The notes beneath the pieces are model-generated. The model searched no databases. It had not been told where the DNA came from and saw nothing but the letters and a program-made list of their open reading frames with translations. Positions 7,350 to 28,769 of a stretch of DNA of 64,000 nucleotides are shown piece by piece (the stretch's first letter is position 1; each line of letters begins with the position of its first letter). The DNA comes from Beverwykella pulmonaria (lineage: Eukaryota > Ascomycota > Dothideomycetes > Pleosporales > Melanommataceae). The DNA is taken from NCBI GenBank assembly GCA_001599595.1, contig BCHH01000004.1, positions 131,905-195,904 of the forward strand, given 5' to 3'. Both the position numbers and the translations under genes were made by a program.

Positions 7350-7530
7350 GAAGCAGGGTCTGAAGCGTTGCTACAGGATCCAGATAAAGATGCTGTTTTA
7401 AACATACATATTTCCTACTTTGGAATTTTAAAGATTTCCTGCAAGGTTTGACGGTACTGCTCGTCGCGCTCGCTACAAGTAACATGAATCCGCGACGCGT
7501 GTGTCATTCACAGCAGCGCACCGCGCTCAG

Positions 7531-7691: not shown

Positions 7692-7892
7692 CAAGGGCAT
7701 AAGCAAGAAGGTTCCGAAATTGCAAGCTATGACAGGTTATGATAGCAGAGAGCTGAAAGCGGGTTGTATTACAAGTAGTTAGGTGCCGAGTAGAGGTGAC
7801 CTGGCTGTGTGTTTATATTCATAGTACAGCGCGATAAGACCTTAACGCCAAATATACAAGGGCATGTAACGAGGCAGAATAGTCGTCACAAT

Positions 7893-7960
7893 GATATAAA
7901 TGTGACGGACTGATTAGACGGTGGCACACCCACGTGACGTTATGGTGTCCTGAGCTTACG
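7893..7960 (+). repeat. Fragment of short LTR family
   Basis: It carries GACGGACTGATTAG, CCACGTGACG and TATGGTGTCCTG, ending GAGCTTACG. It is diverged and 5'-truncated. The sequence after it resembles that after the fragment ending at 3008. Confidence 0.6.
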
Positions 7961-8334
7961 CTATCCATAAGCCAAAGATATTCTCGCCGATGCTTGCGCT
8001 ACATTAAGCAGATTCTGACTGCTCTCAAAACGAAGCATATAATTGCAAGTACAAGTAGTGGGACATTCTAAATTGCGTGTTAGACTGCTTTCCCCAGGGT
8101 GCTACATCGGGAATTCGGTTAAATTTTCCAAACCATGTACTAACCATGGTTAACCAGCTCAGTTGACCCAAACTAGAGTCTCGCTAAATTCTCTTGGCGC
8201 TGCAGACCCCTGTACAAAATTTTCTCAATTTAAGGGGGTGACCGCCTAACTTTCAACAGAGTCTTTTCTGCCAACTGACTTCCTATTTTAGGTAGCTGAC
8301 AGCTGGCCATAGGTTAACTGCTTCACAACATATT

Positions 8335-9310
8335 CACAACATGTTCTAACAAAACTATATTGCTTTACAGAGCTGCGACTACAAAGAATACTTGATAGAG
8401 CTTAATAATATACTAGAGCCTACCGTTAAAGCTGCAATATAGGATAAGCAACTTATCTACGCAGGAAATGCAGAGGGTCTTGTAAGCATGTTGTAAATGT
8501 CTTCTTAATATGTTGTTAACATGTTTACAAAGTCTGTGCTAGGGAACAGACGCCTACAACCTTGTAAATATGTTCTTGTCAGATTGTAGCACTATTTCGG
8601 CTACAAGAATAATGTGGTCACGTTGTGAGATGAAAGAATGATGATGATTGATGAATTGATTGATTGATTGTCGTGTCGCGTCCCAGCCATCGTGTTCCTG
8701 GCTGGGTTTTATTTCTCGCTTAACCCCATGCGCTTAGTCCTATTTCGTTGATCTGTTGCAGGCCCATTTAAGCACATTTCGCCCAATACCACGACTAATA
8801 CCCGTCCATCTGACAGTTCTAAACATGTTATAAACATCTTAAGAATGTCTTAAGAACGTCTTGAGCAAACTATTTTAAACATGTTGTAAACACGTTCTAA
8901 AATAGTTGGGAACCTGTTAATAATTGTAAGGAAATAGAAGAGGCTCAAATAATAAGCATTGTATTCCTATCTAGCGACAGAAGGAAGCATGAAGAAGAAC
9001 AAGGAGGGCAGAGGCCGGCAGAGTTTATAAGGTCCTGCCAAGGCTTCAGACGAAGGATCCGAGGCGAGCCGAAGGATCCACATAACCAGGGCCCAGCCCT
9101 TAACAATAATATAAATGTATTTGCTCTAGTGTATAGATATATTTACTGTTCTACACACAAATTAATCTAAGTATTAGTTATTTATACTTTGTAGTTGTAG
9201 TGGCGTAGTAGTAGTGCAGAACCTTTTCTCTATCTTACTATGTTCTTAACATGTTTAGAACATATTTACAAGTTCTTTAAGTCCTTTTAATTAACATGTT
9301 TTGAACACGT
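8335..9310. repeat. Dispersed AACATGTT palindromes
   Basis: At least seven copies of ACATGTT or AACATGTT occur (near 8338, 8487, 8518, 8823, 8877, 9246 and 9293). They are often followed by GTAAAC or TAGAAC. They have no fixed period. They may be subterminal transposase sites or remains of a degraded array. Confidence 0.5.
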
Positions 9311-9342
9311 TGAGAACATAATAGCATAATGTTCTTTCTTAT

Positions 9343-9490
9343 TTACATCGGCAAAATGTAAATTAGAATCTGGTTGCTGTGGTTAACCATGGTTAACCAT
9401 GGTTAGCTGGGTTAGTGAGATTTGGTGGTTAGTGAGATTACGAGAGCCTCATTTGGCGGGTCGCGATTACTGTGATTAGCTGTGGTTACC
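9343..9490 (+). repeat. Terminus-like segment shared with 25040-25165
   Basis: It starts ACATCGGCAAAATG, followed by GTTAACCATGGTTAACC. It is the reverse complement of the sequence ending at 25165 over about 140 bp. The ACATCGG start is shared with the 3.28-kb element, which suggests related inverted-repeat elements, one nested in the other. Confidence 0.6.
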
Positions 9491-9881
9491 ACGAGCAATC
9501 TATACAGGTATCTAGTTACCCTGATTACCCAGGTTAACTTTATTTGTTATTATAGTATGTATTACTTTAGTAGTAAATTCTCTACATTAGGGAAAGGTTT
9601 ATATTAGGTTTCAGAGCTTTGTATTAAAAACGTATATATTGTTCTATTACACATGCCACTTTAATCCACGCTTGCCTTACACGAGCACCCAACGCCCCTA
9701 ATGCCCCCTAATGCCCCCCAACGCCCAACACTGTGACGGTGCTGCTCGGCAGTGTAGGGGGCCAGGTGCTCGAGGAGCCAATGTAGTGCCAGAAGAATAC
9801 TTATGAATTTGATACCGAGTCTCGGAGGTTTGGAACCTCAGCTATATACATGGAATGTGCTTAGTCACCCCGATCAGAGGT

Positions 9882-10292
9882 TCCGAGGTCTGTGGCCTCC
9901 CGAGGTCTGTGGCCTCCCGAGGTCTGTGGCCTCCCGAGGTCTGTGGCCTCCCGAGGTATGTGGCCACCCAAGGTCTGTTGCCTCCCGAGGTATGTGGCCA
10001 CCCAAGGTCTGTTGCCTCCCGAGGTATGTGGCCACCCAAGGTCTGTTGCCTCTCGAGGTATGTGGCCACCCAAGGTCTGTGGCCTCCCGAGGTATGTGGC
10101 CACCCAAGGTCTGTGGCCTCCCGAGGTATGTGGCCACCCAAGGTCTGTGGCCTCCCGAGGTATGTGGCCTCCCAAGGTCTGTGGCCTCCCGAGGTATGTG
10201 GCCACCCAAGGTCTGTGGCCTCCCGAGGTATGTGGCCACCCAAGGTCTGTGGCCTCCCGAGGTCTGCGGCCTCCCGAGGTCTGTGGCCTCTT
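9882..10292. repeat. 17-bp minisatellite
   Basis: There are about 24 units of 17 bp, GAGGTCTGTGGCCTCCC and the variant GAGGTATGTGGCCACCC, partly alternating to form a 34-bp higher-order unit. Each unit is itself a short imperfect palindrome (GAGG...CCTC). Since 17 is not a multiple of 3 and the unit lacks stops, long ORFs appear in several frames on both strands. None should be taken as a gene. A diverged 60-bp block (TCTCGGAGGTT to CCGAGG) flanks the array on both sides, at about 9820-9885 and 10295-10363. Confidence 0.9.
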
Positions 10293-10404
10293 TCATCTCG
10301 GAGGTTGGGAACCTTAGCCATATATGTGAAATGTGCTTAGTCACCCCGACCTGAGGTTCCGAGGTTCACCAACCGAGTATTCCTGAGGTCTGTAGCCTCT
10401 TACA

Positions 10405-10435
10405 GGCAGCTCGACCACACATCACATGAACACGT
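10405..10435 (+). repeat. Fragment of long LTR family (5' end)
   Basis: GGCAGCTCGACCACACATCA and the following ATGAACACG match the first 50 bases of the long LTR family, as seen at 30388-30726 (reverse) and 13888-14184. Confidence 0.5.
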
Positions 10436-10892
10436 GTCTGAGACGATGGTGGCAGGGGCGTAAGCGAAACGGAAACGGAAACGGAGCGGACAACCAGGCA
10501 GGGCCTTAACTTTTGTCTAGGTGTATGCTTGCTGTGTGACACCTTATTAGCCGTGTTCTAAACAAGACGTATTGTTTCTGCGGTCTCCTTAACTTACGTG
10601 CTCTATAATTGCCGCGTTTACCTAAGTAGTGTGCTTCTGCTGCGCGCCTGCCTTGTTACAAGAGGCTATTTGTAGCAGAGGATAAAGGTTCAATTAAATA
10701 TTAGATACAATCTTAGGTGCAATAAATTATTATACAAAACGTTGCGTAAGGAGCTCAACTAGAGGTCCTTCACGTTTAAATAAATACTTAGCATGGTTCG
10801 TGCATCAGGGGTCTAGTTCGTGCGCGGGCTAAGCCCAGTTAGGACTTAGTTTAGTATTTTAGGTTAGGTCAGGTTGGCTAGTTGCTGAGCTT

Positions 10893-10955
10893 GTCGCACT
10901 GTAAGTCACAGTACAGTGCCAACGGTTGTCACCGTTAGTGTACTGTGAGTCAGAA
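10893..10955. repeat. Strong hairpin
   Basis: GTCACAGTACAGTGCCAACGG is followed after TTGTCA by the near-perfect complement CCGTTAGTGTACTGTGAG. The stem is about 20 bp with a 6-base loop. It lies in transposon-derived DNA; no RNA function is implied. Confidence 0.6.
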
Positions 10956-11048
10956 TGGGATGATGTGCGCAAAGGGTATTAGTCAGTATTGTGCGCAAGT
11001 TTGGGTGTGTGAAGTACTGTGCTGCGGAGTACAGTACTTGTTAGGACT

Positions 11049-11152
11049 GTCGTTCAGGACCGTTGTTCAGGACCGTCGTTCAGGACCGTCGTTCAGGACT
11101 GTTCAGGACTGTCGTTCGGGGCCGTCGTTCAGGATCATCATTCAGGATTGGT
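11049..11152 (+). repeat. Tandem repeat, about 14-bp unit
   Basis: Seven imperfect units of GTCGTTCAGGACC/T occur. Confidence 0.75.
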
Positions 11153-11245
11153 GTCGCGGTGGTTACTGTGACACAGTGTCATCTTCTCCAAGGTCATACT
11201 CTCTAAGCCTGAATGATTTGAGACACAAACAAAAGGTTTCTACAA

Positions 11246-11330
11246 TTTGTATAGTTTGTATATGGTTTGTATGGCTTGTATAGTTTGTATGGCTTGTATG
11301 GTTTGTATGGTTTGTATGGTTAGTGTGGTA
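11246..11330 (+). repeat. Tandem repeat, about 10-bp unit
   Basis: Imperfect units of TTTGTATGGC occur about eight times, directly before the right terminus of the 3.28-kb element. Confidence 0.7.
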
Positions 11331-12366
11331 ACCGGTGGTCAACCATGGTTAGTACATGGTTTGGAAAATTTAACCGAATTCCCGATGTATACTATTATCT
11401 AAACTGCAAATTTGTCTACAACTAGCAGAAGCTTGCTAAGTACCTTGTACGCTTAGTATAAGGTCTACTGTGCAATTAGAACGTCTTTATAAGTAACAAT
11501 TGCGCTTACTAAGGACTTGAGCGCTTTGAACATGTTGTGATTTAATTGGAGGTGAGTTGAAGAGTGACGGAGAAGGTGAGGAGGCGAGCAGGTGGAGGAG
11601 TCATCTTAGTTATTGTGGGGAAGTCCGTGCGACGCTAAATTTGGCGAGGCTCTAGTGTGGGTCAGATGAGCTGTAGTCTCGGTTAACCACTGGTTACCAG
11701 ACAAACCATGTACTGTACCCTCCGAACAACAAGCTCGGCAACTAACTAATCTAACCTGGAATGTACACGAATCAAACACCTGACGCACAAAACAGACCCC
11801 TAACGCACAAACCATACTATAATAAGTACTTATTAAACACGTAGGACCTCTGGTTGAGCTCCTACCGCAACGTCTTGTAATATTGTACCTGAGATTGTAT
11901 CTCTAGCCTTCAATAGCCAATTAAGCCCCAATTACAGACTACTAATAGCCTCTTGTAGCAACACTAACAGGCAGGCGCGCAACAGGAGCATACTTAGGTT
12001 CTAGACACAGCAATTATAGAGCACGTAAGTTAAGGAGACCTATTGTACTGTAAGCAAGAGTATAACACAGCTAATGTACACAGCATAAGGCATTACACAG
12101 TGAACCTGAACAGACAGGAATTGCCAGGACGTTAATTCTGGGCGACTTGGGCAGCGACGAATAGCAGCGTTGAACAGCAGGCAGAATAGTTGTACCGCGG
12201 TTATGGTAGACGTTGAGACCGTTAGGAGTATTTGGACAACATTGAGGGCATTAGGTGGCATATTAGCGTGGAAGGCTTGTAGCATGAGCGTGGCAGGGAC
12301 TAAGTTGTCAAGACGTTGCACTACACCACAACGCCATGACAACGAAAAGGAACATGTGTACAGAAC

Positions 12367-12392
12367 AATATATATATATATATATATATATT
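12367..12392. repeat. AT dinucleotide microsatellite
   Basis: A run of (AT)n of about 24 bases. Confidence 0.85.
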
Positions 12393-12684
12393 TGTGACAC
12401 GAAGTCCTAAAACTATGATAACAAGTAAAGTTAACCTAAGTAATCAGGGTAACCAGATACTGTCGCCCTTGCCTTCTCGAGACGGCGGGACGACAGCGTC
12501 GGGTGACGAGGCGTACGATTCTGGGAAATCAAGAAGGACCTCATATTGAAGGGTGTCGGGCTGTGGCTAGGAGAGAGAGTTGAGTTTATTATGGAGATTT
12601 GACGAATCCGGCATCAAATCTCCACAGCTTATCACCGGCGCCCTTGGCAGGTCTCATCTCCAGCCTCAACACCAATAAAAAGTC

Positions 12685-12831
12685 TGTATAGGCCAGTTAC
12701 TGCAGTAACTACAGCCTCGTCCATCAGTCAGTTACGGAGGGGGGTCCCCTTACTGACCGACTGCCCAGGAATCCGACTGTTAGTAACAGTAACTAACAGT
12801 CGGACCGACTATTGGGAACGATGACTCTCAC
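12685..12831 (+). repeat. Fragment of another element, truncating repeat B copy 2
   Basis: CCAGTTACTGCAGTAACTACA and CGGAGGGGGGTCCC resemble the reverse strand of 24629-24745. CCGACTGTTAGTAACAG is followed by its reverse complement, forming a palindrome. It ends exactly where repeat B copy 2 begins, so it probably truncated that copy. Confidence 0.5.
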
Positions 12832-13712
12832 CTCGAAGAGGGTCTCATAGCATTACCTAAACAAATCTAGGAAACTGCATTAGACAAACCATCGTACATC
12901 TCCCCAAAAACATCAATCTTAAGCGAGTCCAATATGCCTACACCCAAGTGGCGGCTACAAACCAAATCCTGCGGACACGGCTTATTATTATTCCCAACCT
13001 AAGCTCATCTAGTAAACAAGTAATTATTAATAAGACTCTACAACAGTTGTTCTATGCGGATATTAGCTGTACATATTTTACACAGAACACACATCTTTAT
13101 ACTCTTTTGTCTACACCCTGCTCACAGAGGTAGCTGACAGTTGTGTTATTATAAGTAAACAGGATTAGCACGCTCATACTTGCTAAGAATTAAGGTGCCA
13201 TCTACTTAAGACACATTTTAACCATTAGTAATATAAGAAATTATGTTAACTAGTGTACTGCCTATATGTAAAGATCCTACAATATAGTTAAAAAGCTTTA
13301 GGTAAAGAAGATTACAAATAGAGGTCTAGCAGATTAGTTCTTGGAGTATAAGTAAAGTCAGGGATTACTAGTGCCAATACTATAATAGTAAAGGGTTGGC
13401 TATCTGTGTGTATGGGAGAGATATGTACAGCTAATACATATATAACGTGCTGATTAGTTAGTGGCATATACATGTGATGGCATGGTGCTCTGGGCTTACA
13501 AAACTGCATAGCTAACCAACTCTCTGTACAGAGACTACATAAGCTGGCTGGAAGTCTCTTTGCTCTTAAAGGCCACAACAACGAAGACAGTTTGGAAAAT
13601 ATATATATACTCCCTTTCCTTTCCATTGGAAAAGGGTGATGACGAAGATGTTGCGTTGCGAGAGGGGGTGCGACCACGTCGAGCTAGGTGAGTTGCTTAG
13701 ACTAGCACGGAA
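12832..13712 (-). repeat. Dispersed repeat B, copy 2 (inverted)
   Basis: This is the reverse complement of 1391-2275. It is the more AT-rich copy, with C-to-T and G-to-A substitutions typical of RIP. Its reverse strand includes the same diverged short-LTR relic (about 13430-13503). Confidence 0.75.
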
Positions 13713-13887
13713 TGTCACGAGCAACCTTCCCCTCCGGGCCATCCTCGGCCAGCCTTCGGCCAGGTCTCGGACCAGTCACGTGCCGATATGTACATAGTTA
13801 CCCTCCGACTCCTGAGTATTCCTGAAGGATTCGTCTTGAATACACTTTATACCCATATTTCGATCTCCTGCCGACAGTCTCCTTACA

Positions 13888-14184
13888 TGCTCGGCAGCTC
13901 GACCACACATCACATGAACACGAGTCAGATGAGGCGGTGGCGTCCCTTCAACTCCACCACGCACACTCAGCTCGACCACGTCGGGCGACGTACGCGCGTC
14001 ACGCCATGCCACACTATCAGGACATGCTCGGTCGGGCTGCGCCCGGACCACACCCTTCTGTATATAGGATCGTTCTCCCTGAGAACCTCTTCTCGCTCTA
14101 TCTTAGTGTACTTGAAATACAGCCTACTTATCCCTTCATTTGCCTTGCGCATCCACGATGGTGAAGACCGTGCTCGTCATCACA
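13888..14184 (+). repeat. Long LTR family copy
   Basis: It aligns to the solo LTR at 30388-30726 (reverse): CAGCTCGACCACACATCACA, TGCTCGGTCGGGC, CTGTATATAGGATCGTTCTC, TATCTTAGTGTACTTGAAAT, ending GTCATCACA. The TATATA box and following region look like a fungal LTR promoter. The 5' edge and target duplication are not clear. Confidence 0.7.
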
Positions 14185-14189
14185 CTAAC

Positions 14190-15124
14190 CACGTTTTCAG
14201 CTGCTTATAGGTAAGCCCTTCTTAAAACAACCCTACTAGCTCCTCCTGGAATGGCTAAAGTTTAATTGCGCGACGACCAGCTACGTACGTAAGCCTATAT
14301 CCAAAGGAATAGTTTATTTACTTACGCGGAATTATTAAAATTATGGCTACGTGGTAATAAAGAGGTTACCAGTTGCACAACGCTTAAAAAAATTTTTTGA
14401 TGTGTGCGGGGCTCGTATAATTGTTGCACGAAACCCAACAACAGTCCACCGTAATTGTTAGTTTTTCAATATCCTTTCGTACCAGGCCTATAGGTATCAA
14501 TTCAATCCTGGGTATTCGTTATCACTCATGCTGTGAGGCAAACACCGGCAGGGAACAGAACGAAGGGATGGATCAGGAGTGAACAAGCTTGATTCATCAG
14601 AGTCGAGACGAATCCTTGAGGATACTCAGAGGACCCGGAGAAGCTATATATATGATGTGTCACGTGACCTGTAAACACACGACCCGATAAGCCTCCGAGG
14701 GGCCACCGCAGGAGGCCTCCCGGGAAACAGAAGTATCCCTCACACATGCACTCCCATATGCCTTCGGTAGTGATTCGCACCCGAATCGGATAGTTCTGAT
14801 AACCTGCGCCGTTACACACATATCGCGTCATTCACTCACATTAGCCGGGCCCCTGCACCAGCCCCCTCAAACATCTATACTCAACTCGCGCTTGAAACCT
14901 TCGCCTTGCCGTCACAGGCTGTACAGTTCAATACCTGAAAAAGAGGGACATCGATACAACTGGAATTTCGGATGCGGTTCCAGCACAGGTGACCAACCAA
15001 TGGCGGCAAGTACTGGCAACCTCACCCAACAGAGATATCATTCCCGTCAACCTGTCCCTAGGTGACTAGATAAGTGTTTTATCTAGTCTAGCTATTATAA
15101 GGCACCCATTGACAATAATAAGCT
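14190..15124. other. Gene-free interval
   Basis: No supported gene. It separates repeat DNA from the FAD monooxygenase and contains that gene's terminator region. Confidence 0.5.
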
Positions 15125-16527
15125 TTACTCTGCGCTAGACAAGCGTTGCCGAAGTGCCTCTAGACCTTTAGCCTTCTGGTCCTTCTGATCCATGCCATGG
15201 ATATACATCCACTTTTCACCCAGGGCTCCTCGCATCTTCTCCACATCTAGGCCGATGTCTACACCCTTCCCGCAGAGGATCTGGCCTACAGCACAACTAG
15301 ACTCCACAATCTGCTGTGCTCTAGGTCTGCGAATCTCATCGTAGGCTTCAAAGGCCGCGCCAAGCTGGCTAGGTTTTTCGATGGCTCCAAGGACAGCGTC
15401 TAGGATCATGGCATCCTCAATAGCCTGGCCAGCACCAGATCCCTGCCAAGGAGTCATCGCGTGCGCTGCGTCACCGACTATGCAGACGCGATTCTTAGTG
15501 TATGTCGGACAGGCTTCAAGATGATGCGACTGCGGGTACGCTTTCAAGTCCGAATTCTCAAGGAGGAGCTATCTTCATTAGCAGAATGCACGTGCGGTCC
15601 GCGCGGATCTTACCTCAATCAGCCCATCCTTAATGGGAGAATTCGTCCAGTGTGCGAAGGCATCTTGGAGTCGCTCGCGAGTAAGTTTCTCTTTCCACTC
15701 TTCTTCATTCCATCCGTTCTCCGTAATAATGCTCGCTACGCACTGGACCGTCTTTCCACCATCCAAAACATCATGCATAAAAAAGCCACCATCGCCGACC
15801 CACCCATATTGCCGCTCATCTCCAGTCTTGATCAGATCCTCACCCAGAATAGCCCTGGCCGTCTCGACTGGAACCAAGGCTCTGCAGTCCCAGAATCCTC
15901 CAAACTGCGCCTTTTTACCTGGTTGGTCTTGACCGAGGATGTGCGTACGAGTGTAGCCCCGCACGCCGTCCGCGCCAATCAAGGCGTCACAGCTAAACTG
16001 TGTATTGTCATCCCAGTCCAGAGTTAGATCACCAGCAGGATTTTCTGTTATCTTCTTGAGACGCTTGCTGGTGTGCATCTTCTCACGTGGAACTAATGCA
16101 AGAAGTTCAGCAAGAAGAGCAGCGCGATGGACGACTTTGCCCTGTTGTTCAGACGCTAGATCAATGATCACAGTTCCAGCTCCAGGGCCCGATGACTGGA
16201 TATGAAAGATTTAGCGCTCATAATTCTCACGAGATCGACCTCCAAGCCGGTGGAGGCGAAAATGATACTCACAATGACTAATCGACTAGAATTCATTTGC
16301 ACAGCTCCAGCTTTATCTAGACATTCTGCCACCAATTTTCCAATTTCAGAAAGAGCGCTCTGCGCGTTCTGTGCAAGGCCAACTGCAGCGCCCCTTTCAG
16401 AGAATTCTGGTGCAGATTCGAAGATGTCGACATTGAGATGGGGGTGCTTGAGGAGTGCATTCATCAAAGTTGCACCCGCGAGGCCGCCACCTACAATGGC
16501 AACGTGCGTCTTAGGTGATTGTACCAT
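15125..16527 (-). CDS. FAD-dependent monooxygenase (salicylate hydroxylase-like)
   Basis: There are three exons: 16527-16273, 16195-15614 and 15568-15125. The introns of 77 and 45 bp are GT-AG, and the product is 426 residues, normal for class A flavoprotein monooxygenases. The N-terminal Rossmann motif is HVAIVGGGLAGATLM (residues 8-22), followed by the usual acidic DIFESAPEFSERGAAVGL. The middle has IGADGVRGYTR and the late FAD motif is CIVGDAAHAMTPWQGSGAGQ. Such enzymes hydroxylate aromatic or polyketide substrates using NAD(P)H and O2; this substrate cannot be told. It lies about 0.8 kb from the UstYa gene on the same strand, so a tailoring role for the peptide pathway is possible but not shown. 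No frameshift or stop was seen. Confidence 0.88.
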
Positions 16528-17324: not shown

Positions 17325-18380
17325 CTATTGAATGTCATCTTTCCCGCCCGCATCAGGTCTGGTGACATTCGCGTCCTTAGGAATCATGCGACCGATACTC
17401 CAGTCATAAAATCTATCCCATACCATGCATGATCGTTGCGCATTCGTCTTCGTCCCCGGTTTTTCTCGTGGAGGATCATGCCAAAAGAACGTATACAAGC
17501 TCACGTCACCTGTGCACATGACGGAGAGCCGCAGTGCTTCAATGCAGTGATCTCTTCAAGTCAGCAATGAAGATTTCTAGATGGAGAAAATGATGAATGA
17601 AATGCCTACCTATATGTCCAAGCAGATATCTCTCCTGCGATTTAGTGACGTTAGGATAGTAAGTGTCTTTGTAAATGAAGAGTCGAATTTGCCTCTAGAG
17701 TATTTCGGTCAGAGATATATATCTTGGTGTTGTTATGGGATATCAAACAGGGACTTACCAGACAATGCACGTCATGAAACACTCGTGTCGACGCCAGATA
17801 ACTGCCATCTTCTAGTTGCACTGAGTCCTCCACTGATTCGCCAGCCGCAACAATCTCTTCTTTCGATACATTGAAGAACATAGCTGAGCATATAAGTGTC
17901 AGTTGACTGTTTTCGTCTACATATGGGTATAACCTTACGCCGTGTCAATTCGTCCCAAGCACGATTGTTTGCCAAGCTGGGTGGTCCTGAATACTCAGTA
18001 TGGTGGTTGCGCTCGTGAGGCCAGGTAGAAGTAATCTCATGCGCAATGGCCTTGTGTGCGGGAGCTAGCCAGCTTCAGTTACTTACTATCACGATGGGGA
18101 AACTACTCAAGAACCACTTACAAACAGTGGAATACTCCATCGCTCCGGACGGCGCTCCACGCCGCAGTAGAAGCACAAATAGTAGAGTGATCATGCTAAC
18201 GTGCAACAAAAAGTAGTATATAGTGACTAAAAGGCTGCGTGTATGCCGTCGCGGGCAGCGTAATTGGGGTTGTGGAATTTCATGATAGAAGCTGTCAGCG
18301 TCCGACACATGGCGATGACAATCTGAATCGTGATGTCCGAGAAGAAACGGCTCGGAGATAGTATCGAGATATTCTTTCAT
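17325..18380 (-). CDS. UstYa/DUF3328-family oxidase (RiPP tailoring)
   Basis: There are five exons: 18380-18122, 18064-17939, 17883-17759, 17694-17610 and 17551-17325. All introns are GT-AG (55-64 bp), giving 273 residues in frame. An N-terminal cytosolic stretch is followed by one membrane segment (about 50-72). After SPAHKAIAHEI, WDELTRPMFFNVS and GSYLASTRVF come the two family signature motifs: HDVHC (165-169) and HIDHC (197-201), followed by IEALRLSVMCTGD. In ustiloxin, phomopsin and asperipin pathways these proteins catalyse oxidative cyclisation of secreted core peptides. The gene is divergent from a Kex2-type repeat precursor 0.65 kb away. The start was chosen as the first ATG that gives a typical N-terminus before the membrane helix; upstream in-frame sequence has only TTG. 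Its precise reaction is inferred, not shown. Confidence 0.9.
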
Positions 18381-19035
18381 TCTGGCTTCTGGTATCGATT
18401 GTGGAACTTGGTGATGAAGGTTGGTATGAGGGTTCTCAGGCAGGATATTTGGGCCTTGCCTCCATGCAATGAATGTCCGCGATGCATACACAGCCTTCAA
18501 TCCCTGTCATACGTAATGAAAGGGAGACATATTGGTGCAGGGGTTTTCATGGATAACGGACAGTACCGAGCGGTTAGATATGGAAGCACGGCTGCATGAC
18601 TGTGATTAAGCTACATATGTTATGTTTCTCGATGTCTTTCTGCGGCACGGTTAACGGGTTTTATCGACATGAGCGAGGGTGGTACGCAGATATTTGCATA
18701 TGTTATTCAGGAAATCAATCTGCGGAGACCGACCACTGGACCCGTCAGCTAAGGTCCGCCTATGAACTGTGGTCTCACAATATGCAATCCAAGTATATTG
18801 AAGAATTTTGGACCCCATGTTTGCAGGAAGAAGTCCACATACATCCATGAACCCCGGAATGGCCGACGTTGTGCCTCAATCTGTTTAATCTATGTATGTG
18901 AATGGTCCCACGTTTACACTACTATAAATATGTCTATCTTCCTCAGATATCAGAGGCGTTTTCACCATCAAGCCTGAATATCTTGCAGTGTTGCACTTCC
19001 GGAACTCGCCAAAATAACTCTTTCATTCACACACG
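18381..19035. promoter_or_regulatory. Divergent promoter between UstYa gene and peptide precursor
   Basis: The two starts face away from each other across 655 bp with no other supported gene. A TATAAATA box at 18923-18930 lies 106 bp upstream of the precursor ATG. A shared bidirectional promoter is common for fungal cluster genes and suggests co-regulation. Confidence 0.55.
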
Positions 19036-19371
19036 ATGCTCCAAACACTCAGTATTGCTCTCCTCGGCTGGAGCTGCACCTTGCTTCCCGTTGTAAACAG
19101 TGTGCCCATTCAAGGTGTGTGCAAAATATGTGCCACGAGGTACCTCTAGCGACCTGCACTGACATAGTAACTCTAAGGCTTCAACCTTCCTCGCGATGGT
19201 GCTGCCCAGCTTCACGCACCCAAACCCGCAGGCGTTGATAACGTCGCTCGTTTCTTCCGTAGGGAAGAGAATGTTCCACAGGGTGTCGACACGGTGGCCA
19301 AGTTCTTTCGCCGTGAGGAGCCTGTCCCTGAGGGTCTGGATACGGTGGCAAAGTTCTTTCACAAGGATTAA
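19036..19371 (+). CDS. Secreted repeat precursor peptide with Kex2-type sites (putative RiPP precursor)
   Basis: There are two exons, 19036-19114 and 19178-19371. The 63-bp intron is GTGTGT...CTAAG with a CTGAC branch site. The product is 90 residues. Residues 1-22 form a signal peptide (hydrophobic core ALLGWSCTLLPVV, cleavage likely before VPIQ). After a short leader come three repeats of 17 residues starting at Gly45, Gly62 and Gly79. The first two read GVDNVARFFRREENVPQ and GVDTVAKFFRREEPVPE; the last stops at GLDTVAKFFHKD. Arg-Arg pairs at 54-55 and 71-72 are classical Kex2 targets. Signal peptide, tandem near-identical units and dibasic sites are the hallmarks of dikaritin/KEP precursors. 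The divergent UstYa gene supports that reading. The mature product, and whether the FF pair is cross-linked, are unknown. The repeat matches no core I recognise. A secreted peptide without modification is the alternative. Confidence 0.82.
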
Positions 19372-20453
19372 ATATGCTCCACCAGTTTGATGGAGGATTT
19401 GTCAAGTGGCGAAAGTATCTCCTTGGGTCTAAGATGGACTCCGAATCCATGAGATCAGGTTTTCAAAAAAATTTAAATTTTCAAATCACAGGATGAGAAC
19501 TACAGTCTTCTTTATGATGAACGTATTGTCAGAAAATAATTTGTTGCAACGTGTTCTACCTTTTTCGCTCCTTGGTACACAAATAATCGGCTCCACCTAT
19601 CAGCTTCACGGCAGCGTCCGTTGAGTTCAATAATAGCCATTATCTTCAGGCTTGCTTTCGTTTGCAAGTACTGTAGGGGAGTTTTTTTTATCTCTCATAG
19701 GAAGCCCGCTAGCTTCATTCTTCAACAATTAAAATGCCAGTGTCGCGGTATGATTGTCAACGACAAACTACTCCGGTACTTGGGAGCTGTTCATATACTC
19801 GATATCTGTCACCAAATATAATCAGTTATCACGTGACTCCTTAGAGTCTTTGTGCATAGCTCGTTCGTCTCCATTATTCCTACAATCAACTCACGGTCAT
19901 TCACCTCAACTTATTACTTCTTTGCAATATCTAAGCTCGGATTGCCAGCGCAGTGTAGCAAATCTCTTGAAAAAAGACCACCTCATGGGACACGCCACTC
20001 TCCCGCACGAGCAGGTTTAGGTTGGCTGTTGAGTGTCTGAACAGAAACCCAATGCTGTGGGAAGCAATATCGCCTACGGAGTCCGAAGCCATAATGCAGG
20101 CACCTTTGCGTTTTACGCGGCGTTAACTTCTAGCACTTCACAGGGTTGGCCTTGCCGAAGGTGTGTGGGGCGGGGCCCTGAGTATCCATCACAATGGTAT
20201 GTGGTATAAGGGGTGGGCGCCTGCGATAAGCATAATTTTCGAATTTAACTGGTTGGTTTGATAAGGGAAGGATGTGCAATAGAGGCGTAGCAACGCGCAA
20301 GTCCGTGAACAACACATTTATCTGTCGTGTAAGGAAAAGCTCTGCCTTTACGCACTTCCCACCATCTTCTCAAATATATCATCTTTCGGGGCCGTTTTTC
20401 ATTACATTCTACTTACCCACTTTGTACCCAATCTGAAAGCCGTTTGCCTCACT
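19372..20453. other. Intergenic, nothing recognised
   Basis: This contains the precursor 3' region and the promoter of the downstream membrane protein. Short ORFs lack support. Confidence 0.5.
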
Positions 20454-21827
20454 ATGTCATCCTCCTCAAAAGAACTATACTACCAGCTTGCCAGCCACAA
20501 CCTGGCCGTGGCAATCGCTCTTCCTATCCTTGACATCGTCGCGGTTGCACTTCGAGTATATGCGAGACAGAGGCAGAAACTACCCTTGAAGTTGGACGAT
20601 TGGTTCATGATTCCAGCGCTCGTGAGACACTATCCCTCAAAGCCTGACTCTTTTTCTCCCTAAAAGCCGCTGACAGGGTTTCACCAGATCTTCACACTAG
20701 GTGCGAGTGCTGCAATGATTGTTGGTACGTAAATGGAGCATTAATTACATCAGACAATGATTAACCAAGACGTAGGTATCTCTATGCATGCGGAAGGCCA
20801 TCCTGTTCCACATCCCTCAGCGGACGGGATAATAAATTCATCTCTTACACCTCAAGAAGCTGTGGCTCTCACCTCGAAGGTCGTAGAACACATACCCCAT
20901 TGATTTCAGACTGCTGACTGGCCGCAGGTTGAGTACGCGATACTTTTACTCGTAACGGCCGGTTTATACTGCGTTAAAATGAGTCTACTATGCTTTTATG
21001 AACGTATCTTCTGCGTTCACAAGTTGAATAGTCTCAGATTCATTATATACGGAGCCATGACCTTCGTTACTTTATGGGGCTTGGGTTTCTGGTTTGCCCA
21101 ATTATTCGCTTGTGGGACGAACTTCAGCGCCTTTTGGGGTTCCCCCATCGAACTAGCTACCAAATGCACGCAGACATTGAAGCTGGAATACGCATTCTCA
21201 ATTACTGACTTCGCGCTCGATTGCGTGATCTTCATTATTCCAATTCCTCAAGTAAGTGAGATAGCATCCAATACGGTTTTGCGTCTGACAGGACATAGTT
21301 GTGCACCCTTCGGCTTCAGACAGCAAGAAAGATAGCGGTGATGATCATTTTCATGATAGGAGCTGGGTGAGTCAAAAGCCCTAAAATGGGCGCGCCAATA
21401 ACTGACCTAGAAACCTTGAAATATAGTGCTGTTGCTGCCTCGGTAACCCGTCTAGCGCTCGTGGCTCAAGTTGTTCAGAGTAGGTTACATGTTCATGTTA
21501 GGAAGGATAGATACTAACTATAGAGCAGAGGGGTTTGATCCGAGAGAAGACGAGGACCGTAAGTCGTTCCCTCACATCCTCCGGTTACGGATCGATAAGC
21601 TTACTCACTATACAGTTGTGATCACAGGAATGATGTACTGGCTATTAGTTGAACTCTCCCTAGGCCTTCTTGCAGCATGTCTGCCCACAATTCGCGTCCT
21701 ATTCGCCGGATTCTCTGCCGAATCCATCATCAAGAGCATCAGAAGTGCTATTTCCCTGCACTCAATGAAGTCGCACTCAAGCCATGAGCAAATTCCCGAC
21801 CACGGAGAAGTAGCAAGTCGATCGTAA
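20454..21827 (+). CDS. Fungal rhodopsin-domain integral membrane protein (PTH11-like topology)
   Basis: There are eight exons: 20454-20621, 20688-20724, 20776-20879, 20928-21251, 21299-21366, 21427-21479, 21529-21558 and 21628-21827. They add to 984 nt in frame, 327 residues. Segments include NLAVAIALPILDIVAVALRV then KLDDWFMIPAL, YAILLLVTAGLYCVKMSLLC, FYERIF, FALDCVIFIIPIPQ, ARKIAVMIIFMIGAGA, and YWLLVELSLGLLAACLPTIR. This is the pattern of the large fungal family of seven-helix proteins with a conserved (D)DWF/M motif. Members are often near secondary-metabolite or effector genes and some are GPCR-like. No ligand can be assigned. One donor (GTCGTA) is weak, and the 30-nt exon 7 deserves RNA support. 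Confidence 0.82.
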
Positions 21828-22776
21828 CTTTGACGACAGTATATAAAAGTTGGATTGCTGTAGTTGCGGCCATGGTTTTCTCTAGGGTTAGTTTTCGCAT
21901 GGGATTTCCTTGGTTGAAGTTCCCTTGGTGTCCCGTAAGGGATGCATGGGTATCATCGGCACGGTCATGAAGTCTTGAGATTGCCCAGCATGCCGAGTCT
22001 TGTGGGCCGATTCATATCTGAAATCCCTGGATTTTTCACGACTCCTAATGATGCTAGCATGCTTCATTTCTATTTTGCTCTCTTAGATTTTCGTCATATC
22101 AGCCTAGCTCGTTCTCAAATGGATGTTTGTATTATTCTATTTACAGTTAGGCTGCCAAGCACCTCATCTACTTCAATTCTCTCAGCCTCATCACATCCAC
22201 ACATCCACCTCATGTGAGCTCATCTCATCAAGCCTCTCACGCGACGCTTGATCGACGATTTGAATCACCCACCCGCCGTCCCTTTTAGCATTGTTTTTTG
22301 TTTTTGTTTTTTAGATAGCATCTCCCAGCTTCGTCTCGGTCTCCGTTCAGGCGGATCAACACCTCACTGATTGATAGAGAAGCTCTACTATCTCTACTCT
22401 GATAGGCCTGTCTTGCTAAGCTCACGGCAAGCTTCAAGGCAAGCACAACGCTCACGGGGCCTATCACGAGCCTGAGTACGAGCCTGAGCCTATCTGTCAA
22501 TTACGTGAGGCGAGACGAGCTCTGGCCCCCAATACAAGCGTTCTATAACCAAACTACCTACTTCCTGCAGGCCGGAGTGATAAATAGATTCTCGCTTCCA
22601 AAGGAATATCGGGGAAAGTTTCGCGTCGCGTTTCAGGACTTCAATCCCTAACATGCGTGTGCCACGAGCGTTCCACGCCCCCAACGTTGCCAATGTCGCA
22701 ATCCCAAGTCGCGATATTGCACGAGCACCCAACGCCCCCAATATTTTCCCAATGCCCTTAATGTTTTCCTAATAAC
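21828..22776. other. Intergenic with transposon-like repeat DNA
   Basis: A T-rich run lies at 22288-22310. Around 22390-22480 several CTCACGGCAAGCTTCAAGGC-like direct repeats occur. Near 22675-22770 the imperfect motif CACCCAACGCCCCCAATG repeats and resembles 9680-9730. It is probably the 5' flank of the transposase relic that follows. Confidence 0.45.
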
Positions 22777-23689
22777 GTGTTCCACCACCGAGCGCATCAC
22801 CCCCGCACCAAAACGTACTGTGAGCGACAATACAATAAAATGCAACCACGACCACCCACTGTATCAACTCCAAATAAAACTAGAATCACTATTGCTATTA
22901 AAGCTACGAAATCCACCCCGCATTTATCAAAACAAGCTGCTGCGCGCGCCTACTTAGTTCCTCAAGCGACCCTAAGCTATCAGAGCAATGGACAAGCTTC
23001 ACGACGTGATTGCCAGCCCAACTGCAGGAATCTTACACCGCTAGAAGAGGAAACAATAGTAGAGCGCATACTTGACCTAGATTCAAGAGGGTTTCCACCG
23101 TCAAAGGGCCTGCTACAAGATATAGCCAACAGCCTGCGCAACCACTAAGGGCTACCGCTAGTTAGCATTAACTAGCTGGACCGTTTTATGTTTTGTTCTA
23201 TACTAGGTTAGGCCGCCAAGCTTTTCAGCAGAGTTCCAGAGTCGATCCCAGATGCCTCAGAGCCTCAACCATCAACTATCAGCAACCTCATCAAGCAATC
23301 AATTCAGCCCCAGATTGTACAATTCTGCGATACATTGTTTTGCACACCAACACAAAAACAAGATGCTAGTCCACACATCCTGCGGGGGCAGCCTAGCTAC
23401 AATTGCGAACAGCCAGATCGAACCTCTCTTGAAAACAGACGTCGCCGCCCTTAAGCTTAAAGTTGAAGCAGTAAAGCTCACTGTGGAGCTCAGAACAATT
23501 GCGCACAATGAAGAGATGCAGGCCCTCGCCCTTGCCGCAGCCAAGGCAGCTGCTACGGCTGTACCAACCGCCTTACCAGGCAGTAACGCCATAGACGAGT
23601 CTGGTGAGCAATTCTCCCCTCAAGTTCTCACTACTATCACACAGTTCCCAGGCTTACAAGCGCGGGATATCAACGCCATCCTAAGTTAG
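22777..23689 (+). pseudogene. pogo/Tc5-like transposase relic (HTH part)
   Basis: The first ORF contains PRPPTVSTPNK, SKQAAARAYLVPQATL and LTPLEEETIVERILDLDSRG, FPPSKGLLQDIANSL. That is the HTH-psq/CENP-B-type DNA-binding N-terminus of pogo/Fot-class fungal transposases. A stop at 23146 breaks it. A second reading frame from 23252 lacks the DDE catalytic core and may be the C-terminal coiled part of the same element. Dead copy. Confidence 0.7.
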
Positions 23690-23799
23690 AAATTTGACGC
23701 AATAAACCTCCCCTAACTCCGCCTTGGGGTAGGAGCTCCCGCGGAGGAACTCCGCCATACCACCCATCTTAATCTGTTGATGAGCCAGCTTGTTGTCAC

Positions 23800-24400
23800 A
23801 AGTGGAACTTGGAAGCCTTTGGCGAATCTTTGGGAAAGAAAGGAGCCATCAAGGCGCAGTATGGTTACTTTCTCCACGATGACCTCTCCGCCTTTGATGC
23901 TTCCTTCTTCTCCATGTCCAAGTCTGAATTAGAAAGAGCAGACCCNCAACAACGCAAGATTCTAGAAATTACCCGCGAGTGCTTGGAGTTAGAAAAGATT
24001 TTCTCTTCTTTTTTGATCTAGTGCGCTAACTTTGAAGTTAACAGAGAGCTGGGGAGACCAACTGGCGAGGACGACAAATCGGCTGCTTCGTCGGGACCTT
24101 CGGTGAAGACTGGCTACACCAGCAATCAGCCGACAAAACACAATTTACAGGAGCCTTCTCTGGGTCAAGCGATCTGCTGATCGCCAACCGTGTGTCGTAT
24201 GAGTTCGATTTCCGCGGCCCCTTAGAGGTGATCAAGACCGGATGCTCAGCATCCCTCATCGCGCTCCACAACGCTGTCCGGTCGATCCAAAACGGAGACT
24301 GCGAGGCTGCCGTCGTCGCCGGAACCAGTTTGATTATGGGCCCGTATCTGACTGCGACTATGTCACACCAGGGTATACTTTCACCCGAGGGTTCCTGCCC
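23800..24400 (+). pseudogene. Polyketide synthase ketosynthase-domain fragment
   Basis: Joined frames read GAIKAQYGYFLHDDLSAFDA, ADPQQRKILEITRECLE, then after a probable intron with CTAAC branch site (about 23990-24043) GETNWRGRQIGCFVGTFGED, DLLIANRVSYEFDFRGPLEV, IKTGCSASLIALHNAVRSIQ and GDCEAAVVAGTSLIMGP. This is the N-terminal half of a type I highly reducing ketosynthase with the active-site cysteine in GCSASL. It lacks the start of the domain and everything after LSPEGSC, where repeat A copy 2 begins. One undetermined base is at 23945. The intron donor is not consensus. It is a truncated relic. Confidence 0.82.
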
Positions 24401-24628
24401 TTGTGATTTTCCACATCACACACCTTTCCTCCACCTCAATACATCACACAGAAGACAGATCTTGATACTCTTTCCTCCGCTCTCCTGCTTAACATAGGTT
24501 GAGTGATCTGGCAGTTGCAGCGGTTCCCATCGCATGGAGCTCACATATCATCATTCGCTTCATTCTTCTTAGCGGACATAGAAGTGCCATCCAAGGACAT
24601 TCAAGCGTTAGTGTCTAAGGCTTGCCAG
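24396..24628 (+). repeat. Dispersed repeat A, copy 2
   Basis: It is the reverse complement of about 2305-2555 with few differences (for example ATCTTGATACTC, GCGGACATAGAAGTGCCATC). Its left edge abuts the ketosynthase fragment. At 24628 (GCCAGGTAA) it is interrupted by the element that follows. Confidence 0.75.
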
Positions 24629-25165
24629 GTAAGCCGACCGACCGACTGATGGGGGGACAGGGGGGTACCGTAACTAAGGGCTGCCGTAACGGCTTACTAC
24701 ATAATAGCTCCGTAACTGAAGGGTGTAGTTACTGGGGTAACTGGAGTCGAAAACCCCAAATTTTTGTCCATATCCTCAAATATCCCTCTAGCAGAGATGT
24801 GAGCTATAAGCTCGTTTAGGTCCCGCACCCAATATCCCACCCACGACGCGAGCAGGGGCTTGTTGGCGTAGTGTATATTGCCCCATTCCACTGGGAACTC
24901 AACGCCATTGTTCTGGTCCACTTTGCGGGGGAAGGCTTTCAAGAGCGACTCGGCTAAAGCCTTGAGCGTTGAGGGCGTCGGGCCCGACGAAACAATGGAG
25001 GAGGACATAGAGGGTGTCGGCGAGAGTATAGATTGCTCCTGATAATCATAGCTAATCACGGTAATCGCGACCCGCCAAATAAGGCTCTTGTAATCTCACT
25101 AACCTAGCTAACCATGGTTAACCACAGTAACCAGATGCTAATTTACATTTTGCCGATGTACTACC
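24629..25165 (-). mobile_element. Fragment of inverted-repeat element with ACATCGGCAAAATG terminus
   Basis: The reverse strand starts ACATCGGCAAAATG and matches 9343-9490 for about 140 bp. The other side resembles 12688-12760. In between, a reverse-strand reading frame (about 25008-24697 from its first ATG) encodes SSGPTPSTLKALAESLLKAF and VEWGNIHYANKPLLASWVGY. I do not recognise this protein; it may be an element-encoded protein. No complete copy is visible. Confidence 0.5.
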
Positions 25166-26654
25166 ATACTAAGCAACCAAGTTTTTGAATAGAAGGGAAT
25201 GTAGCCGGAAATACAACAAACCTTGCAAGTAAAATCCCTGGAGAAAATACCGCAAATAGATTGAAATATTGAGGAACTTTGTAGAATTTAATGATCAAAT
25301 CATTGTATCGAGTTTTCTTAGAAAGCGTCTCTTCTACCGGAGAGGTTTTAGAGACTGAATCCTTTGTGGATTTGGAGGTGCCTGTCCTTCCTCCACTAAT
25401 TTGGTGGACACGCCTCCAGGGAGTGCTAGGAGACTCCCCATATCAAGTGCAGTAGCAAAAGAACTAGAGAACGAGATAGTCGAAAAATACCAGCAAGCAC
25501 ACGGACTATCAACGTGGGAGCGAAGGAGTAATGACGACGAAGCGACTACCCTAGCTCCTATTGTTTTCTTGTCTACGCTATTATCTCTACCACTTTGCTG
25601 GCATGGACATCTGTAAGTATATGGGACCTTCAATTCAAGCCCTATTATAAGTTTGCCTTCTTTCTTTGATGCTTGATGCATGCTGTTGACGGAAACCAGC
25701 ACTAGTAAACCCCGTTGTCCAAAACGAGATCCAGAAATTTCATGCCGATGTTGTCATGATATTCTACCAAGAGCCGTCATAGTAGTACAAAAAAGCCTGG
25801 GAGAACCTGCTTGCGCGTGAGCACCCCTTCGGTTCTTGTGGGACTGCATGCCAACTGCGAAAGCCATGCACATGTCCGCAACCAAACACGAGCTAGAGAA
25901 GTCCAATGACAACCTGCGGAGCGTTTAGTGTTGGTGATGCCTGTTGAAGGAAGAAAGGGCTAAGGCCGATGGACCGAGGGAGACTATCTGGCAGCTCTGT
26001 ATATTACGAGTTGCATTGTCTAGTAAGCAAACACTGCTTTCTGCGCGGGCGCGCAACATATGCAAGCTGACAGTCATACGTCAGCGTCGCATCTACTGGC
26101 ATTTCTACCCTGAGTTTTATTTTGTGAATATGACCAGCGAGTTGATGGGGGAGGGGCGCGGACACGCGAGTAAATTTCTCTAAACCGCCGGAATCTTCAC
26201 GCATGGTACTTTCAGGGCACTTCATAAACGCTATCCGGCAATCCTTGGTGTGGCAACCAAAGAATAGCTCCAGCACGTAGCTTTTTAGATTAAAGATGTC
26301 CTGGGGTGCTAGGGGGGCGCAATGTGTTTTATTGCGGCGCGGGTGCGGCGTGCGACATGGTGTTCGAGGAATTGAAGATATTTTTTTCACCCAATGGTGG
26401 TCACCGGTTACGTTAAGACGTTAGTTGAAAGTCCAGACACCCCTGCCCAGGCGATGCTCCATCACTATCCGAATTTGACGTGCGTGATTGGCCACTGCCC
26501 CAGAATATATCGCCTTCCCAGAACAAGACCCAGGCACAAAGCCACTGCAACTGCTTTGTCTTACCTTCGCCGCAAACATCGATCTTCATCATTCTAGTAC
26601 GTCCTGAAGTATGCGCAACGGCTCCTTCGGGCCTTGACTTGCACCTTAACAACT
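25166..26654. other. Gene-free interval
   Basis: ORFs at 25401-25616 and 26004-26390 have no domain signature, and their starts do not join to plausible exons. The last 200 bp are probably the promoter of the acetyltransferase. Confidence 0.45.
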
Positions 26655-27439
26655 ATGCCTTTCGAGGTTTCCCTGGCCACCGACGATGACTTTGCGCGCT
26701 TCATTCCTCCACTGTTCGGCGTCATGGGTGCGGGTGGCTTTGTCGCTGCGCTGTGGCCCGATAACCAGACAGAGGAGGGGCAGAAACGTGCAATAGAGAG
26801 ATTCATGACTGAGAAGTAAGCTTCAAATCGCTATGGAAGCGATCACCACTGACTTCAGCGGCAGGGATGTCCGTCTAGGCGTCAGCTGGGTCAAAGTAGT
26901 AGACACCTCGACAACCGAAGCAGATGGAAAGCCAAAAATTGTGGGTATCGCGCAATGGACTATCTTTGAGCCTGGAAATAAGTACCCCGAAGTGCCAGAG
27001 CTTGCGCCGGACGGGACCTGGCCGAATGACCTAGATAAGGAATATGCTATCCAAATATGGGAGAGCTACATTCGACCCCGCCGAAAGATGCTCCAAGAAT
27101 CAACAGGGCCTGTAATGAGTAAGCAATGCTTATTAAATTCAGAGATCGTTTAGGATTACTAATAGACTGACCTAGACAGGTCTACAAATCCTCTGCATCT
27201 GGCCAGCGTATTGGAGACAAGGGGCGGGAGGTATGTTGGTGAAATGGGGATGCAATCTAGCCGATCAGATTAATGCAACTTGTGTGGTAGAGTCGTCAGG
27301 ATCCGGCCAACGACTTTATAAGAGATGGGGCTTTGAGCTGCAGGAGGACTTTGCATTGGAAGCTGATGAAAAGTTTAGTGATCGAAAGAACAAGGGTAGG
27401 GTACGTTTCATGGTGAGGCTTAATGCACGAAAACAGTGA
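26655..27439 (+). CDS. GNAT-family N-acetyltransferase
   Basis: There are three exons: 26655-26815, 26859-27118 and 27180-27439. The 43- and 61-bp GT-AG introns (TACTAAT branch in the second) give 226 residues without interruption. It starts MPFEVSLATDDDFARFIPPL, then SWVKVVDTSTTE, VGIAQWTIFEPG (beta-strand 4 region), and, across intron 2, LCIWPAYWRQGAGGMLVKWG. The Arg-Gln-Gly-Ala-Gly-Gly loop is the acetyl-CoA pyrophosphate site (Q/RxxGxG/A). It ends LYKRWGFELQEDF, typical of the GNAT fold. The acceptor substrate is unknown. It lies between transposon relics but appears intact. Confidence 0.85.
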
Positions 27440-28040
27440 ACTGCTTAGAAAGCCTAGAATACTAGGCCGGGTAGATCTCTGCAAAAGGGTTGATGAACGG
27501 TTTATATAATTATTAGTGAATAGGTGATATAAGAAATCATACAATTCCCCCTTTCAAGGGCATGCGTAGTGGTCAGAATATAAAGACAGCCCCTTCGGCT
27601 CTTTGTATCCTTCTAGTCTTATCTAGGAACATCTTTCTTTACTATCTGTCGTTTCAAGTATCAATACTTCTTCCACGAGCGGGAGCTTCCGAAGCGAATC
27701 CATTAGCAAGCTTCTCTATTGCCTCTAAGGACACTAATCGAGCCCTACCTAGTTATTATGTCGTGGAATTTCTAATACTGAAGTATCTTTTTTATTTTTT
27801 TATTTTATCCATTTGCCGTCTAGTACCAGCCCTAGCCGGAGCCATGCAGACAAACGCCAAGGAGAAACTTATTGTTGTGGGGTAAAGGTGTGATATGGAA
27901 ATCAGGAGCCACTTAGTGCCAATAGCATTTGATGTCTAGCCCTTCTATAAGGTTGTATAGATCCAACTGGGTACTGATTCAGGTGGGAACCACGTAGTCT
28001 ATAGAAAGTGGCCCTTAAAAATAATAAAGCAGCGTAGCCT
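27440..28040. other. Possible retroelement leader, no gene
   Basis: A TATATAA box (27500) and an ATAAAGACAGCCCCTTCGG segment (27578) look like an LTR promoter. The 107-codon ORF after it has two hydrophobic runs but no known domain. I cannot define LTR edges. Confidence 0.3.
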
Positions 28041-28690
28041 CTAGCTAGTAGCTGATACACACTCAATTATCGAGACCCATTTGCGATTCTCTGGAGACTT
28101 AACATAAGACTTCTTTTTTGATAATCTAGCAAGGACCCTCATGCTGGTACATACTCCCAGGGCACATCCTGTCTCATCCATGTTGTACACATCTTTCATA
28201 GGTATGTTAAGCCGCTGTCGAGTGGCCTCAAAGAGCTCTCGGGACGCGCGGACCTGCTCAGGTGTAGCTGCCTCGGCTCTTTGAGCCTCAATATTCTTAC
28301 CAAATACAGATGCAACGCCAGAGCTTGCCGACAGTATTATGATCGCCATTCATTCGTAGGATTCGATTGGCCATTTCTCGAGCTCTGGCGTGTGAGGGAG
28401 GACTGACGCGCGCGTCCTCTTCGAGTATCCATTGAAATAGGAATTCATCTTGTTCAGGGCTCAGCCGCTGCCGATGTTGATGAATGGTAATGCTATTCGT
28501 CACACCCTTCAATCGATCCTGAACGTGCTTCGAGGGATTCCATACGCCTTAGCAGCAACTCTCTGGCTCTTGTAAACGCCTGCATGGAAATCCCGGATAG
28601 CTGGCCAATCACAACTTCTTTAACATCCATAGTGAGGTGATAAATGGTGTTGAATTGATAGGAACATGTTTTGGTGGGGTGGCTAGAAAC
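28041..28690 (-). pseudogene. pogo/Tc5-like DDE transposase relic
   Basis: Reverse-strand pieces in several frames read in order QLSGISMQAFTRARELLLRR, GVTNSITIHQHRQRLSPEQD, EFLFQWILEEDARVSPPSHA, VASVFGKNIEAQRAEAATPE and PMKDVYNMDETGCALGVC. The HTH region followed by the first DDE aspartate motif (YNMDETG) identifies a Tc1/mariner-superfamily pogo-type transposase. Frameshifts occur near 28510 and 28340, and the copy ends before the second catalytic aspartate. It is on the same strand as, and just downstream of, the membrane-protein gene. Confidence 0.8.
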
Positions 28691-28769
28691 CATATGTGGC
28701 CAGAAACTATATAGCCAATCTTAACAGAAGAGAAATGTCCTTATAAACTATAAAGATATTTTATACTAT

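Follow-up and report, generated by a model that had tools for sequence, protein, structure and literature searches.

A stretch of 64,000 nucleotides from Beverwykella pulmonaria, hereafter the window (C4:131905-195904), carries an UstYa/DUF3328 oxidase gene and, divergent from it, a gene for a small Kex2-type repeat precursor. We consider it likely that the two form a small KEP/UstYa-type RiPP locus making a Kex2-processed, UstYa-modified peptide. This reading is favored because the oxidase matches PF11807 and has both HXXHC motifs, because the precursor has units spaced by 17 residues, two Arg-Arg sites and constraint on the units, because the genes are divergent neighbors, and because dibasic repeat precursors occur at seven of the 16 further UstYa loci read in this genome. 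The probable product is a small modified peptide whose sequence has not been reported.

The oxidase and precursor genes

The segment 17325-19371 runs exactly from the UstYa stop codon through the precursor stop codon. The UstYa/DUF3328 gene (17325-18380, minus strand) is intact, and our spliced model joined five exons (18380-18122, 18064-17939, 17883-17759, 17694-17610 and 17551-17325) into a protein of 273 aa. The introns measure 57, 55, 64 and 58 nt, with donors GTAAGT, GTAAGG, GTAAGT and GTAGGC and acceptors TAG, CAG, TAG and GAG. AAG and GAG are less usual as intron acceptors than TAG or CAG. The first-pass annotation had described five cleanly splicing exons, which holds for three of the four introns and not for the last, with its GAG acceptor. 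It had also reported two HXXHC motifs, and both are present: HDVHC at residue 165 and HIDHC at residue 197, the second being created by the last exon join and depending on the GAG acceptor. The DUF3328 HMM check that it had proposed gave a clear match of the spliced protein to PF11807 in Pfam (E=1.5e-38, residues 46-252, 133.3 bits against a cut-off of 25). The one strongly hydrophobic stretch, near residues 50-72 (19-residue mean hydropathy of 2.33 from residue 54), was taken as a membrane helix and would lie upstream of both motifs.

Among 360 candidates from the protein database, two proteins were homologues of the window UstYa, one from Polyplosphaeria fusca and one from Hypoxylon texense, with 61% and 39% identity, respectively, in a three-sequence alignment. 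The four His and two Cys of the motifs were invariant across the three sequences. The annotated P. fusca homologue has two extra residues within the second motif, at the position of the window gene's last splice junction, and as annotated it would not be a strict HXXHC protein. A sequence search up to an E of 1 found no solved structure of an UstYa relative.

The 655-bp gap described earlier between the divergent genes was confirmed at 18381-19035; its role as a shared promoter is presumed from the layout, as is joint expression of the two genes. A single plus-strand TATAAA lies in this gap at 18923, on the precursor side. The precursor gene (19036-19371, plus strand) starts with an ATG at 19036 and encodes 90 aa in two exons, 19036-19114 and 19178-19371. 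The predicted 63-nt intron (19115-19177, plus strand) has a GTGTGT donor, a CTGAC branch-like site and an AAG acceptor. Since the repeat frame contains a stop codon just upstream of exon 2 and exon 2 has no in-frame ATG, the peptide needs this 63-nt splice, which would use the AAG acceptor. Exon 1 translates to MLQTLSIALLGWSCTLLPVVNSVPIQG, a signal-peptide-like start, and the N-terminus is hydrophobic, with a 15-residue mean of up to 1.63 on hydropathy as the sole measure; it may function as a signal peptide.

Three units follow, with cores beginning at residues 45, 62 and 79, a period of exactly 17. On the plus strand, the core of unit 1 is GVDNVARFF (19231-19257), followed by the RR of RREEN (19258-19272); that of unit 2 is GVDTVAKFF (19282-19308), followed by the RR of RREEP (19309-19323); and that of unit 3 is GLDTVAKFF (19333-19359), followed by HKD and the stop codon with no RR or KR behind it. 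All three cores share Gly, Asp, Val-Ala and Phe-Phe, plus an Arg or Lys preceding the Phe pair. In units 1 and 2 the dibasic site follows this pair immediately, and none of the three units contains Tyr. The secretory 90-residue precursor with Arg-Arg sites described in the first-pass annotation therefore stands in its length, its signal-peptide-like start and its three units, with only two RR sites, behind units 1 and 2, and a third unit that extends to the C-terminus. A fungal Kex2 site is KR or RR, less often KK, and ascomycete alpha-type pheromones place an STE13 X-Ala/X-Pro spacer directly behind it (both from an excerpt of PMC6339444). The window spacers behind RR read EENVPQ and EEPVPE; their first pair is EE, and V-P and E-P-V-P lie one residue out of the STE13 register.

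No precursor match was found in the protein database, where one candidate was scored. This absence is weak evidence: the search needs shared 5-residue words, and small genes may be unannotated, although many Pleosporales proteins are included. No second copy of the precursor was found elsewhere in the genome. The strings DTVAKFF, TVAKFF and NVARFF were absent from the literature searched, and VAKFF appeared, among the matches listed, only in papers on milk proteins and lactoferrin. Because KEP types are mostly unique at least at the genus level (PMC7329392), an unseen precursor sequence is expected.

Genomic setting and other UstYa loci

A FAD-dependent monooxygenase gene (15125-16527, minus strand; PF01494, E=9.3e-23) lies 0.8 kb downstream of UstYa in the same direction; its hand-spliced model has the ATG at 16527 and the last ORF end at 15125. 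This enzyme is a possible tailoring enzyme of the pathway. A fungal rhodopsin domain gene (20454-21827, plus strand, ends read by eye; PF20684, E=8.1e-17 on the piece 20904-21332) is probably outside the pathway. Six-frame scans of 6001-15002 and 22001-31992 at an E of 0.001, which short-exon genes may escape, revealed no peptidase, transporter, tyrosinase, methyltransferase or P450. The scans returned ketoacyl-synthase remains, Tc5/pogo-like transposase pieces and a DUF3565 hit below the cut-off (20.5 bits against 25). The ketoacyl-synthase match (23803-24398, plus strand) falls in two different frames and was the sole polyketide synthase domain detected in 22001-31992; considered as a polyketide partner for UstYa, it was rejected and treated as a relic.

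The gene pair sits amid few recognizable domains and some mobile-element remains. At 27906-28461 (minus strand) we observed two weak Pfam matches, to DDE_1 (slightly over the cut-off) and to a Tc5-type DNA-binding domain (slightly under it), which appear to be the remains of a pogo-like transposase. An inverted repeat pair at 30790-31948 (87 nt, 91% complementary, 985 nt apart) may represent the terminal repeats of a small mobile element, and a 973-aa open frame at 33978-36896 (minus strand), with a reverse transcriptase match (PF00078, 29.9 bits against a cut-off of 29.6), is possibly a non-LTR element. A PDDEXK_12 gene lies further left, at 4.5-6.1 kb. Ten ORFs were sampled beyond 37 kb: five were above the Pfam cut-off (GH76, decarboxylase, bystin, NmrA-like and PQ-loop), one was weakly below it (lectin) and four were unmatched. 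The decarboxylase (40739-42217) shares 91% identity with a Pleomassaria siparia protein and 86% with a Melanomma pulvis-pyrius protein, and both alignments cover 97% of the query. Both species are placed in Pleosporales.

We searched the genome (45.6 Mb, 31 contigs) and obtained 58 exon-level PF11807 matches, window gene included, which were grouped by eye into 31 loci, again including that of the window. Sixteen of the 30 other loci were read, 10 over 20 kb and 6 over 6 kb, and seven of these 16, a fraction of the loci read and not a genome-wide count, have dibasic repeat precursors. They comprise L012 (NPADILG-KR, four units), L014 (three units with ETRIYYK and KR sites), L022 (GLYAENG-KR, five units), L026 (PAWVWAS-KR, at least four units), L027 on the minus strand (AYPESY-KR, 14 near-identical copies), L034 (HHKGKG-KK, at least seven units) and L036 (QFGYNVPAG...EKR, about four units). 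The L026 and L034 precursors run into N stretches, and that of L036 is split over two overlapping frames, so that the gene may be broken, spliced or misassembled. The cores of the seven hold Tyr, Trp or di-His. The window locus is of a weaker kind, because KR sites occur in all but one of the seven, and all but one likewise contain at least four units.

The dibasic-repeat scan behind these assignments, run at 4/7 identity, gave 27 rows in 310,000 bases, with the rest of the window and L037 as the non-UstYa control. Rows accepted by inspection were those of L012, L014, L022, L026, L027 (minus), L034 (two), L036 (two) and the window precursor; those set aside were L023, L024 (two), L028 (two), L029, the L027 plus frame, a second L026 frame, three other L034 frames and six other window rows. 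When the 27 loci L011-L037 were searched by tblastn with the precursor, none of the seven precursors contained a match; the top-scoring hit, at L033 (E 0.032, 25.8 bits), covered 23 residues of the signal-peptide region with a stop inside. The best-scoring UstYa match in the same loci was at L031, with 29% identity over 173 aa, and by this measure the window UstYa would not be a close paralogue of any gene in them.

The pairing of UstYa with a precursor is thus routine in this genome and in print. Dikaritin-type pathways are recognized by a DUF3328 gene with a Kex2-type repeat precursor next to it (PMC7329392; PMC9632046, in excerpt), and the pairing proposed for the window was borne out, with both gene structures holding. 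A survey of 1461 strains counted 1758 KEP genes with a DUF3328 neighbor (PMC7329392), nine dikaritin clusters are given for Venturia inaequalis in the excerpt of PMC9632046, and DUF3328 is described as the class-defining enzyme of dikaritin RiPPs, beside a multi-core precursor, in an excerpt of PMC12048977.

Selection on the units and competing readings

None of 60 order-2 Markov simulations of the window gave an ORF in which two [KR]R sites follow heptads that agree at 5/7 positions, the only identity at which this null was run. The real window contains two such ORFs at 5/7, the precursor and a DNA-level tandem repeat at 11045-11203, and the repeat pattern alone is therefore no proof. In six-frame scans, short tandem DNA repeats of this kind can pass for a dibasic repeat peptide, and such scans need a substitution test. 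Between units 1 and 2 (17 codons), 13 changes are synonymous and 9 nonsynonymous, with a pS of 1.07 and a pN of 0.23; a pS above 1 indicates saturation. The values were 0.98 and 0.24 for units 1 and 3 (11 codons), and 0.51 and 0.08 for units 2 and 3, which show only 6 differences. When equal numbers of changes were placed at random, none of 20,000 trials preserved as many residues for units 1 and 2 (over 17 and over 11 codons); the fraction that did so was 0.00075 for units 1 and 3 and 0.042 for units 2 and 3. This pattern fits selection on the repeated peptide and is unlike a fresh DNA duplication. A decayed gene, or a gene on the antisense strand, would leave the repeat frame without a working plus-strand gene, and we regard this as the least probable of the readings considered. 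It would accommodate the AAG acceptor of the precursor intron, and an antisense ORF of 124 aa (19027-19401) scored 0.17 in codon usage against 0.18 for the plus frame, a difference too small to separate the strands, so codon usage was dropped as a strand test. The long antisense ORF nevertheless shows the opposite substitution pattern, with residues altered more often than silent positions (pN 0.53 and pS 0.24 for units 1 and 2), by which the synonymous-change test eliminates it; the same test does not discriminate against a 48-aa antisense ORF, whose frame yields a ratio similar to that of the precursor. The plus strand in turn has the signal-peptide-like exon 1, an upstream TATA box and a frame open to the stop, and silent changes occur at both Arg codons of an RR site.

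If the repeat gene works on the plus strand, its product could be a linear secreted peptide, a signal or an effector, that is processed by Kex2 and left untouched by the neighboring UstYa. We find this unlikely. In its favor, a nearby DUF3328 gene is absent for 78% of the surveyed KEPs (6120 of 7878; PMC7329392), and the lack of Tyr in the units points the same way. Yet the precursor is the immediate divergent neighbor of UstYa, and DUF3328 genes accumulate at KEP genes with their maximum at the next position (PMC7329392); KEPs annotated as pheromones, moreover, have no DUF3328 neighbors, with three exceptions. Since Tyr occurs in 65.6% of the repeats of DUF3328-accompanied KEPs (PMC7329392), a core without it belongs to the minority without being a contradiction. 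It is more improbable still that UstYa acts on a non-peptide or non-ribosomal substrate, together with the FAD monooxygenase or formerly in a lost polyketide pathway, with the repeat gene unrelated. DUF3328 enzymes do act outside RiPPs, as in the non-ribosomal cyclochlorotine pathway (excerpt of PMC12435403), and the window offers the tandem FAD gene and the ketoacyl-synthase match; but this match is the split, solitary relic described above, the repeat gene lies closer to UstYa, in divergent orientation, and precursors accompany seven of the 16 other UstYa loci read. What counts against the RiPP locus itself is that there are only three units and two RR sites, no Tyr, no peptidase, transporter, tyrosinase or methyltransferase in the scanned flanks, no precursor homologue or second copy, AAG and GAG acceptors, and a similar ratio in the short antisense frame.

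A possible route to a Tyr-free product

In the RiPP reading that we prefer, the precursor would enter the secretory pathway, Kex2 would cut behind each Arg-Arg and the Arg residues would be trimmed, leaving units that end in ...V-A-K/R-F-F. A membrane-anchored UstYa, as a two-copper oxidase facing the organelle lumen, would then oxidize the core, with possible tailoring of the product by the neighboring FAD monooxygenase. The relative CctR is described in an excerpt of PMC12435403 as a DUF3328 hydroxylase, a membrane-associated homodimer with a binuclear copper center bound by HXXHC pairs; it localizes to the Golgi, endosomes and vacuoles, and its catalytic domain is proposed to face the lumen. 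By analogy, an UstYa enzyme so located would be well placed to modify a secretory precursor that Kex2 has processed.

Ustiloxins, phomopsins and asperipin-2a close via Tyr (PMC7329392), whereas victorin closes via the side chain of a C-terminal Phe and an internal Leu (PMC9233826). As the window core has no Tyr, Tyr-ether chemistry cannot apply, and because victorin uses its C-terminal Phe, the Phe pair is most likely the site of oxidation by analogy. It would be joined to, or oxidized with, a neighboring side chain in a victorin-like manner rather than through an ustiloxin-type Tyr ether. The cyclic or cross-linked product put forward in the first-pass annotation is overstated as a conclusion, since DUF3328 proteins also hydroxylate and chlorinate (excerpts of PMC12435403 and PMC12048977) and all units lack Tyr. 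A more specific version, a minimal Tyr-free dikaritin pathway in which the single divergent UstYa joins Phe-Phe to the neighboring Val or Lys/Arg side chain, is a tentative proposal and rather unlikely; such a cross-link by the UstYa family was not found described in the literature searched.

The victorin producer belongs to Pleosporales, and victorin is, by analogy, the closest published precedent that we found for the window core. Its multi-core precursor is thought to be Kex2-processed and its closure uses the C-terminal Phe (PMC9233826), a likeness to the window by description only; victorin is chlorinated and its cluster encodes peptidases, whereas the scanned window flanks hold no peptidase domain. 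The ustiloxin and phomopsin pathways (PMC7329392, PMC9233826) share with the window locus a secreted multi-core precursor, dibasic sites and an UstYa/DUF3328 oxidase. Their cores, in contrast, cyclize through Tyr with a tyrosinase and further genes, and the window has neither Tyr nor such a domain in the scanned flanks. Accordingly, the Tyr-containing core of that subtype is absent from the window precursor, while the dikaritin trait of a DUF3328 enzyme beside a multi-core precursor is found at the locus, with the precursor as putative substrate. The asperipin-2a pathway resembles it in having a single DUF3328 enzyme (PMC7329392) and, according to an excerpt of PMC12048977, no peptidase gene, but its product is linked through Tyr side chains (PMC9233826), which the window units lack. 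KEPs are defined by a signal peptide and at least three tandem repeats of at least 8 aa between KR, KK, RK or RR sites (PMC7329392). The window precursor is like KEPs (PMC7329392; PMC6339444, in excerpt) in its signal-peptide-like start, its three repeats of at least 8 aa and its RR sites, and unlike them in that its third unit reaches the C-terminus with no Kex2 site behind it.

The window pair is one more member of a class known as common and diverse in fungi, distinguished by an unusual core that has no Tyr and ends in Phe-Phe. With two genes, perhaps three, the locus is small enough to test. Together with the seven other repeat-precursor UstYa loci of this genome, it provides a natural set, with cores holding Tyr, Trp, di-His or Phe, for matching enzymes to peptides. 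If the product is real, a substrate without Tyr would be added for the copper oxidases of this family, the reaction range of which is still being worked out.
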